NCBI GenBank assembly: GCA_022827095.1
Contig: JAJDTP010000021.1
Span: 322,771 to 386,770, forward strand
Source: Dehalococcoidia bacterium
Lineage (GTDB): Bacteria; Chloroflexota; Dehalococcoidia; Lucifugimonadales; UBA3495
DNA: 64,000 nucleotides
Reading direction: 5' to 3'
Shown piece by piece: positions 11,404 through 13,747 of the stretch. The notes beneath the pieces are model-generated. The model saw nothing but the letters and a program-made list of their open reading frames with translations. It was not told where the DNA came from and ran no database searches. Position 1 is the first letter of the stretch. Each line of letters opens with the position of its first letter. Made by a program: the position numbers and the translations under genes.

Positions 11404-12477
11404 TTAATCCGCAGGTACCGCAACCTCGCTGCCGATAGCTTCGTAAGCCCATTCGAGCAGGTCGACAGTCTCGTCCCAGCCGATGCAGGAGTCGGTGATG
11501 GAGACGCCGTATTGCAGCTCGGACGGGTCGGCGCCGAGCTTCTGTGCGCCCGGATTGATGTTGCTTTCAAGCATCACGCCGATGAGGTCGGAGTTGCCGG
11601 CCAACCGCTGCTCCAGCACGTCGCGGAAGGCGATGTGCTGGCGCGTGTGGTCCTTGTTGGAATTGCCGTGGCTGCAGTCCACCACGATGGGAGCGGGAGC
11701 GCCGGACTTGCGGAGAGCGTCAGTGGCGGCCGCGATGGAACGGGAGTCGAAGTTGGTGCCGCTGCGGCCGCCGCGCATGACCAGGTGACAGTTGCGGTTG
11801 CCGCGGGTTTCAACGATGGAAGCCTGTCCATCGTGGTCGATGCCGAGGAACGCTTGGGGCGTGCGGGCGGCTACCAGGGCGTCTACGGCGGTCTGGGGGT
11901 CGCCGTCGGTGCCGTTCTTGAAACCCACGGGCATCGACAGGCCGGAAGCCATCTGACGGTGGATCTGACTCTCGGTGGTGCGTGCGCCGATGGCGGCCCA
12001 GGTGACGAGATCGGACACGTACTGGGGCACTATGGGATCGAGGAACTCGGTGGCGGAACTGAGGCCGGTTTCGGCAATCTCAAGCAGCAATTGGCGAGCG
12101 CGATGCAGGCCGTCCTCGATCTGGTAGGTGTCATTGAGGTTGGGGTCGTAGATGAGGCCCTTCCAACCTACCGTGGTGCGTGGCTTCTCGAAGTAGACGC
12201 GCATCACGATCATGATGCGGTCGCTGAGCCGGTCGGCCAGGGGCTTGAGACGAGCCGCGTAGTCCAGCGCACCCGACTGGTCATGGATCGAACAGGGGCC
12301 GACAATGACGGCAAAGCGCTCGTCGTCGCCGTTGAGCACGTTCTCCAGCTGGCGCCGGCTATCGAGCACTACGTCTTCTGCCTTGTCGCTAAGGGGAATT
12401 CGGGCTTCCAGTTCGGACGGTCGGATCAATGCGTTGTTACTCATCACGTTCACGTCTTTTGCCGGTGAGATTGCCAT
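11404..12477 (-). CDS. aroG: 3-deoxy-7-phosphoheptulonate (DAHP) synthase, class I AroFGH type
   Basis: A 357-residue enzyme joining phosphoenolpyruvate and erythrose 4-phosphate, the first step of the shikimate pathway. VIVGPCSIHD, MRVYFEKPRTTVGWKG, ARTTESQIHRQMASGLSMPVGFKNGTDG and VDCSHGNSNKDH are all class I landmarks, and the length fits AroF/G/H. AGGAGG lies 8 bases before ATG 12477. A Tyr/Phe-rich leader peptide and terminator directly upstream suggest control by aromatic amino acid supply. Which of AroF, G or H it corresponds to cannot be told. Confidence 0.92.
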   Translation of the reverse strand: MAISPAKDVNVMSNNALIRPSELEARIPLSDKAEDVVLDSRRQLENVLNGDDERFAVIVGPCSIHDQSGALDYAARLKPLADRLSDRIMIVMRVYFEKPRTTVGWKGLIYDPNLNDTYQIEDGLHRARQLLLEIAETGLSSATEFLDPIVPQYVSDLVTWAAIGARTTESQIHRQMASGLSMPVGFKNGTDGDPQTAVDALVAARTPQAFLGIDHDGQASIVETRGNRNCHLVMRGGRSGTNFDSRSIAAATDALRKSGAPAPIVVDCSHGNSNKDHTRQHIAFRDVLEQRLAGNSDLIGVMLESNINPGAQKLGADPSELQYGVSITDSCIGWDETVDLLEWAYEAIGSEVAVPAD

Positions 12478-12524
12478 CTTTTTGTCCTCCTGACGGTACC
12501 GGGTGCGGGGCTGACGTTACCAAC

Positions 12525-12558
12525 AAAAAGGACTTCAGCCTCCGTCCGGCTGAAGTCC
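12525..12558 (-). terminator. Attenuator terminator upstream of DAHP synthase
   Basis: Read leftward, GGACTTCAGCC (12558-12548) pairs with GGCTGAAGTCC (12540-12530) in a perfect 11-bp stem with a 7-base loop, followed by TTTTTGTTGG. It begins 24 bases after the stop of the leader peptide and ends about 48 bases before the DAHP synthase start, so it must be read through for the gene to be expressed. Confidence 0.9.
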
Positions 12559-12582
12559 TGCCAAAGTGGTTGTCACCAAGTT

Positions 12583-12687
12583 TTATCGGGCTTCCAACAC
12601 CGGGTTCACGCTGGCCGTGCTGCGGTAAGCGTAAAAGTAGAAGGGGCGATAATACCCGGGGACGATTTGGTGGCAGGCGGTACTCAT
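12583..12687 (-). CDS. Tyr/Phe-rich leader peptide of the DAHP synthase attenuator
   Basis: A 34-codon ORF whose residues 11-22 read GYYRPFYFYAYR: five Tyr and two Phe within ten residues (12-21). It ends in TAA 24 bases before an 11-bp terminator, and it starts about 4 bases after the predicted transcription start of a near-consensus promoter. Composition, length and position are those of a classical attenuator leader peptide sensing charged tRNA-Tyr and tRNA-Phe. I did not identify the competing antiterminator pairing with certainty. Confidence 0.8.
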   Translation of the reverse strand: MSTACHQIVPGYYRPFYFYAYRSTASVNPVLEAR

Positions 12688-12697
12688 TTCGACGAAA

Positions 12698-12726
12698 ATC
12701 CTACTCCCGTCGCGCTGCGTTGTCAA
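12698..12726 (-). promoter_or_regulatory. Promoter of the aromatic leader / DAHP synthase unit
   Basis: Read leftward: TTGACA (12726-12721), a 17-base spacer, then TAGGAT (12703-12698). The predicted start near 12691 lies about 4 bases before the leader-peptide ATG at 12687, so the leader would be nearly leaderless. Confidence 0.75.
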
Positions 12727-12790: not shown

Positions 12791-13609
12791 CTAAAGGGTC
12801 CGTCCCGCCAGTTGGGCGACGACGCTGGCGCCGCGTTCCGCCGCCTGCTCATCAGGGCCGTCGGACAGGGCGCGCACCAGCAGACTGCCGACGACTGCGG
12901 CGTCGGCCCGTTTGCCAACAGCCAGCACGTGCTCCCGGCTGGAGATGCCGAAACCGACCGTGACGGGGAGATCCGTGCGCTCCCGAACCCGGTCGACTAG
13001 GTCCAGGCCGCGATCTGACAATTCCGAACGTGCGCCCGTGATGCCCACCACGCTGGTGCAGTAGACGAACCCACCGCCCAGTGAGACCGAACGCTCGATG
13101 CTCTCATCGGTGCTGGTTGGCGCCAGGAGCGGTATCAGGCGGACGCCGTAGGGCTCGAGTTCCGCAACCAGCGTCTCAGCCTCCGAACTTGGCAGGTCAA
13201 CGATGATCAGGCCATCCACGGTGGCTTCGGAGCACGCCGCGGCAAATTCCCTGAGGCCGAAGGACATGACCGGGTTGTAGTACCCCATCAAAATGAGGGG
13301 CGTATCGCCGACGAGGGGTCGCAGGGCTGCCACGGTATTCAGGCAGTCCCGGGCGGTTACCCCGTTTTGCAGGGCCACGTAGCTGGACGCCTGGATCACT
13401 GGACCTTCGCCGATGGGATCGCTGAACGGAATGCCCAACTCGATGGCGTCCGCGCCGGCCTCAACCAGGCGGGGCACGACGTCCAACGCGGCGTCCTTGT
13501 AGGGATGGCCGACCGTGACGAACACGACGAGACCGGGTCGGCCCTCGGCTTTGATCGACGAGAACTTGGCGGCAATACGGTCCGGGCGAATGGCGGTCTG
13601 GGTTGTCAT
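12791..13609 (-). CDS. trpA: Tryptophan synthase alpha subunit
   Basis: A 272-residue TIM barrel that cleaves indole-3-glycerol phosphate to indole and glyceraldehyde 3-phosphate for the beta subunit. GADAIELGIPFSDPIGEGPVIQ holds the catalytic Glu and loop; MGYYNPVMSFG, DLPSSEAE, LLAPTS and VGFGISS follow in order. trpB is not next to it, which is unusual. ATG 13609 is preferred, with GTG 13618 as an alternative; neither has a strong ribosome site. It lies just upstream of the attenuated DAHP synthase gene. Confidence 0.93.
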   Translation of the reverse strand: MTTQTAIRPDRIAAKFSSIKAEGRPGLVVFVTVGHPYKDAALDVVPRLVEAGADAIELGIPFSDPIGEGPVIQASSYVALQNGVTARDCLNTVAALRPLVGDTPLILMGYYNPVMSFGLREFAAACSEATVDGLIIVDLPSSEAETLVAELEPYGVRLIPLLAPTSTDESIERSVSLGGGFVYCTSVVGITGARSELSDRGLDLVDRVRERTDLPVTVGFGISSREHVLAVGKRADAAVVGSLLVRALSDGPDEQAAERGASVVAQLAGRTL

Positions 13610-13747
13610 CTTAGTCACTCGACGAAGGGCGAAGATCGAAGTGTAACTAGACTATCCTACGGGCCGGCGGGTGTCCAGACGGCGGGATTGAGTACGTGCC
13701 GTACGCTGGGTGAGGCGGCCATTCCCGGCTGGAACACGGCTGCGAGT

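Follow-up and report, generated by a model that had tools for sequence, protein, structure and literature searches.

What controls the class I DAHP synthase gene at this locus, and does the short reading frame in front of it, crowded with tyrosine and phenylalanine codons, belong to a transcription attenuator? The first-pass annotation of the window (the whole 64-kb stretch of Dehalococcoidia DNA analysed here) had described a 34-codon ORF with five Tyr and two Phe codons in ten, a perfect 11-bp hairpin with a T5 tail 24 bases past its stop, a promoter with a start point about 4 bases from the leader ATG, and the ribosome site of DAHP synthase beyond the terminator. All of these features were confirmed, and they lie on the minus strand of the window in the 5' to 3' order trpA, promoter, leader ORF, hairpin with T5, AGGAGG, and DAHP synthase; the start point is predicted from the promoter boxes. 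The components are as follows.

12794-13618, minus strand: trpA, directly upstream of the leader unit and on the same strand.
12698..12726, minus strand: predicted sigma-70-type promoter, TTGACA-17-TAGGAT, between trpA and the leader.
12583..12687, minus strand: leader peptide ORF, 34 codons and a stop, encoding MSTACHQIVPGYYRPFYFYAYRSTASVNPVLEAR.
12625..12654, minus strand: putative Tyr/Phe stall codons, YYRPFYFYAY, codons 12-21 (five Tyr and two Phe), which with flanking codons make up region 1.
12591..12648, minus strand: competing 1:2 fold, in which 12648-12622 (Tyr/Phe codons) pairs with 12611-12591 as long as it is free of ribosomes; minimum-energy fold of the leader RNA.
12589..12603, minus strand: region 2, the predicted 5' arm of the antiterminator, CCGGTGTTGGAAGCC, within the leader ORF; from stalled-ribosome folding and covariation with region 3.
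12546..12558, minus strand: region 3, the predicted 3' arm of the antiterminator, GGACTTCAGCCGG, which is the 5' arm of the terminator plus the first bases of its loop.
12525..12559, minus strand: intrinsic terminator with a 12-bp stem, a 7-nt loop and a T tract.
12486..12491, minus strand: DAHP synthase ribosome-binding site, AGGAGG, 8 nt 5' of the ATG.
11404..12477, minus strand: class I (AroFGH-type) DAHP synthase, the regulated gene (NCBIfam TIGR00034, E 1.6e-141).

The perfect hairpin spans 12558-12530, reaches 12 bp when the flanking A-T pair is counted, and is followed by T5. The -10 box lies 10 nt from the leader ATG, and transcription is predicted to start about 4 nt ahead of that codon. 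Within the 64-kb window no other ORF with at least 5 Tyr or Phe codons in 12 has a terminator behind it. The genome to which the window belongs (G000) has one match to the DAHP synthase family PF00793 and none to the class II family PF01474; with a single detected DAHP synthase, no entry to the pathway was detected other than the one behind this leader unit. At the element itself, Rfam gave no family at the gathering level, and relaxing the search to E values up to 10 added two chance matches only. Elsewhere in the window, a cobalamin riboswitch (RF00174, 101.6 bits) lies at 2572-2771 on the minus strand.

The anatomy of the unit, its conservation, the covariation of its arms and a natural codon swap before pheS, all of them read from sequence, give us high confidence that it is a classical ribosome-mediated transcription attenuator responding to charged tRNA-Tyr and probably tRNA-Phe. 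We infer the following cycle. The transcript would begin some 0-4 nt 5' of the leader ATG, and translation of the leader would initiate with no Shine-Dalgarno site. A shortage of charged tRNA-Tyr and/or tRNA-Phe would make a ribosome stall on YYRPFYFYAY and cover region 1, leaving region 2 free to pair with region 3, and transcription would read through into DAHP synthase. With an ample supply of aromatic amino acids, the ribosome would reach the stop codon and cover region 2, allowing the 3:4 terminator to form; in untranslated RNA, the 1:2 fold would likewise favour termination.

The unit is widespread and covarying rather than a curiosity of one genome. In the genus, a leader with a recognisable YYRPFYFYAY run and a hairpin were found in all 12 genomes that have this DAHP synthase orthologue, the window's own genome included; of two other congeners, one has only a distant DAHP synthase copy and the other has no DAHP synthase. 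The genus alignment shows no variation at Y12, F16, Y19 and Y21. Across the order, a strict scan found a leader and a terminator before DAHP synthase, much diverged, at 53 of 125 loci, spread over 25 of 57 genera and 11 of 23 families, and no match at the other 72 loci. Under a single criterion, the unit was present in 49 of the 125 real upstream regions as compared to none of 625 dinucleotide shuffles. The peptides have strongly diverged between families and have kept their richness in Tyr and Phe (14.3% and 8.9% of residues, respectively), for example MKITWGGYGYYYYFFTGCQPTGEGLVC (L015), MFNLLSSYGYYYYFTGTYYTGGVLVL (L017), MENKFFEGTHFYYYFSSFSRLPIKDLCKL (L160) and MIENYFTYYYYFKKKGRIIAFR (L023). 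The first-pass annotation had staked its reading on relatives keeping the Tyr/Phe codons and the hairpin, and both are kept in the genus and at the 53 order loci.

Other aromatic leaders were seen along the way. In family f36, genera g67, g72, g73, g74 and g77 carry other Tyr/Phe-containing upstream ORFs of 25-55 amino acids before DAHP synthase, e.g., ...EYFSYSYTGGLFTNGRSYRS (loci L180, L187, L190, L192, L195, L191, L205, L147, L173, L174, L193, L158, L166, L168 and L177). Some of these loci have hairpins near the stop codon, and an intrinsic terminator was not detected at them; they possibly represent a different, terminator-less type of attenuator. Two DAHP synthase genes from Desulfatitalea/Desulfobacteraceae (L077 and L085 (2700-3000)) have Tyr-rich leaders, HFYYYYYYRG and REYSYYSYWTG, with strong terminators. 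In another class of Chloroflexota, the DAHP synthase leaders of L276 and L279 mix Phe, Trp and Tyr (FWGYFWFSYF and FFYFWFSYF), and judging from their codons they might sense all three aromatic amino acids.

The promoter is conserved together with the leader. A good sigma-70 promoter precedes the leader at 50 of the 53 order loci, as compared to 25 of 530 control windows, and in 45 of those loci the -10 box ends 6-12 nt 5' of the leader ATG. Given this conserved spacing, the transcript probably begins 0-4 nt before the ATG, which would leave no Shine-Dalgarno site. The spacing suggests that members of this group generally translate the attenuator peptide from a leaderless start.

The core of an attenuator is the choice between two pairings, and the evidence for the antiterminator comes from several directions. 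Region 2, in the 3' part of the leader ORF, is complementary to region 3, made up of the terminator's 5' arm and its loop; in the window's genus they read CCGG...GAAG.CC and GG.CTTC..CCGG, respectively. Over 25 genera, the 2:3 pairing energy was -23.6 kcal/mol with each genus's own partner and -18.4 kcal/mol with swapped partners, and none of 20,000 permutations of partners between genera was as good; a palindromic CCGG common to both regions inflates the complementarity, and the swap control corrects for this in part only. The first-pass annotation had proposed looking for covariation between the terminator arm and an upstream segment, and regions 2 and 3 do covary across genera. In an alignment of 22 diverged loci (A1), 11 of the 2:3 pairs changed on both sides, with 33 such cells as compared to 15.9 after shuffling; the covariation score was 0.266 as compared to 0.190 for shuffled alignments (0 of 500 as high), and it collapses when the pairing is slid. 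The terminator stem covaries as well among diverged relatives. Among members of the genus the 2:3 arms show almost no variation, and at this level covariation neither supports nor refutes the pairing. The 1:2 helix is supported more weakly by the sequences: its counterpart in diverged families has 76.5% of cells paired, and the region 3 motif recurs in the codons just past the Tyr run (e.g., ACCGGC).

Folding is consistent with the same switch. When a ribosome was modelled on the Tyr/Phe codons, with RNA polymerase having reached the loop, the lowest-energy fold of locus L001, and likewise of the four folded congeners, was the antiterminator at most stall positions. With the modelled ribosome at the leader stop, the terminator alone forms in L001 and its relatives. 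The full-length terminator of L001 exceeds the antiterminator in stability, which means that the switch has to work kinetically. Kinetic switching is usual for attenuators.

We built a covariance model, R1, from 22 diverged loci. It matched 44 of 250 order genomes, once per genome apart from one extra copy, and in all 43 genomes where its matches could be compared with DAHP synthase coordinates they lie directly upstream of that gene. Among 294 genomes sampled from the class, R1 matched one, which belongs to the same order. Under strict filters R1 did not detect the window's own element, and it detects the congener G003 weakly (E 3e-4). The genus form has therefore diverged from the family, and the match in G003 links it to the family.

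The sole extra match lies in G101, before pheS (TIGR00468, E 1.1e-91).

L239:230-420, G101 contig 121: attenuator copy before pheS, with the Phe-only leader MCNTSITNFFTRFRFIG.

This copy can be aligned with the DAHP synthase copies of the same family in its promoter, regions 2 and 3 and terminator, but the codons TAT TAT TAC have become CGC TTC CGC, i.e., Tyr codons have become Phe and Arg codons. The leader codons thus track the amino acid of the regulated gene, Phe only at pheS and Tyr/Phe at DAHP synthase, in a single natural case. Attenuation by tRNA charging predicts this pattern, with Phe codons ahead of a Phe-tRNA synthetase and Tyr/Phe codons ahead of DAHP synthase, and the copy is a natural codon swap that fits the textbook mechanism. 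It is isolated, since no leader-terminator unit was found before pheS in 30 relatives. The G101 metagenome bin carries about 7% contamination, and a close relative could be the true source of the contig.

Which of the two amino acids is sensed is a question within the attenuation reading, not an alternative to it. A response to Tyr or Phe alone is a serious possibility, though we lean a little against it. For Corynebacterium glutamicum, PMC11802643 describes a Phe-Tyr-Phe leader that reacts when Phe is limiting but is indifferent to Tyr availability, and this precedent warns against assuming the joint sensing of both end products that the first-pass annotation had expected; in the order-wide leaders, moreover, Tyr exceeds Phe by 212 to 132. 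However, the stall window holds both Tyr and Phe codons in nearly all families, and one of the residues invariant in the genus is F16. On the codon count, Tyr is probably the dominant amino acid.

Sensing through the nascent peptide (an arrest peptide) or a small ligand, instead of tRNA charging, seems very improbable to us. The C-termini of the leaders beyond the Tyr/Phe run are conserved within groups (AAGEGLV and EAR), as this explanation would have it, but these codons coincide with region 2 and their conservation can be explained at the RNA level, by that overlap. Between families the peptides differ strongly except in Tyr and Phe, the pheS copy kept its RNA parts while its Tyr codons were replaced, and no Rfam riboswitch matched at the element. 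We rejected, as having very little chance of being right, the idea that the hairpin is the terminator of the trpA transcription unit and the leader ORF a chance or unrelated frame: trpA does adjoin upstream on the same strand, with this terminator the first one past it, but the leader and terminator are kept before DAHP synthase at 18 of 34 checked unit loci with no recognisable trpA in the upstream stretch examined, 6 loci with trpA lack the unit, a strong promoter lies between trpA and the leader while no promoter-like site was found between the terminator and DAHP synthase, and neither the conserved Tyr/Phe codons nor the 2:3 pairing would be accounted for. Nearly leaderless attenuation through Tyr and Phe codons, as the first-pass annotation had proposed it, is the reading that conservation and covariation strongly support.

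Taken as such an attenuator, the unit may be part of a wider division of labour in amino acid control. G000 also contains three T-box leaders, L206, L207 and L208 (contigs C21, C5 and C26). Two of them seem to precede acetolactate synthase (ilvB), and the other, which is weaker, seems to precede trpE, the gene names being read from translated ORFs. Based on these positions, branched-chain and Trp control may use T-boxes in this genome, and DAHP synthase a leader peptide. We think it fairly likely that the units form an undescribed RNA family across this uncultured Dehalococcoidia order, combining leaderless initiation, a Tyr/Phe stall run, and one motif that is present in both region 1 and the terminator loop and competes for region 2; it would have been copied once to pheS, with a change from Tyr to Phe, and would act as the principal control on the first step of the shikimate pathway, beside the T-boxes of trpE and ilvB.

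The first-pass annotation knew of no described case of attenuation on class I DAHP synthase, and here it was mistaken. In C. glutamicum aroR-aroF, a leader with Phe-Tyr-Phe precedes the DAHP synthase gene, and stalling raises aroF transcription (Neshat et al. 2014, as described in PMC11802643 and PMC4046766). The two systems share a leader peptide with aromatic codons upstream of a DAHP synthase gene; they differ in phylum, in the codons (FYF only, as compared to five Tyr and two Phe here) and in the reported response, which in these sources is to Phe only, and we liken them by description and claim no homology. In Acholeplasma, the uORFC-13-1 motif before aroF consists of an upstream ORF and an apparent intrinsic terminator, its 5' end carries possible promoter boxes, and attenuation has been proposed (PMC8632094). 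The arrangement of ORF and terminator before aroF is similar to ours, whereas that motif has a ribosome-binding site, its U-run encodes at least one Phe, and it is confined to Acholeplasma and environmental sequences.

Leader peptides that begin at or beside the transcription start, without a Shine-Dalgarno site, are also on record, in Sinorhizobium meliloti trpL (PMC7298713), in Streptomyces lividans leuL, trpL and ilvL (PMC8079986), and in the C. glutamicum ilvB leader, which is described as lacking a ribosome-binding site (in a paper cited by PMC4046766). These serve other amino acids in other phyla, and in our case the arrangement is predicted from promoter spacing. The E. coli attenuators of pheA (pheL) and pheST, where stalling at aromatic codons controls transcription (PMC11802643), offer a further comparison by description: the pheS copy parallels that of pheST, while, as described there, both act on genes other than that of our main unit and respond to Phe only. 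Our literature search for an attenuator of a Chloroflexota DAHP synthase returned no report, which is weak evidence, as subscription journals were poorly covered. With the C. glutamicum case described and the Acholeplasma case proposed, this kind of attenuator is known; what is new, and apparently unreported, is an order-wide Chloroflexota family of it, which extends tRNA-sensing leader-peptide attenuation of the first shikimate enzyme to a large and mostly uncultured lineage of that phylum.
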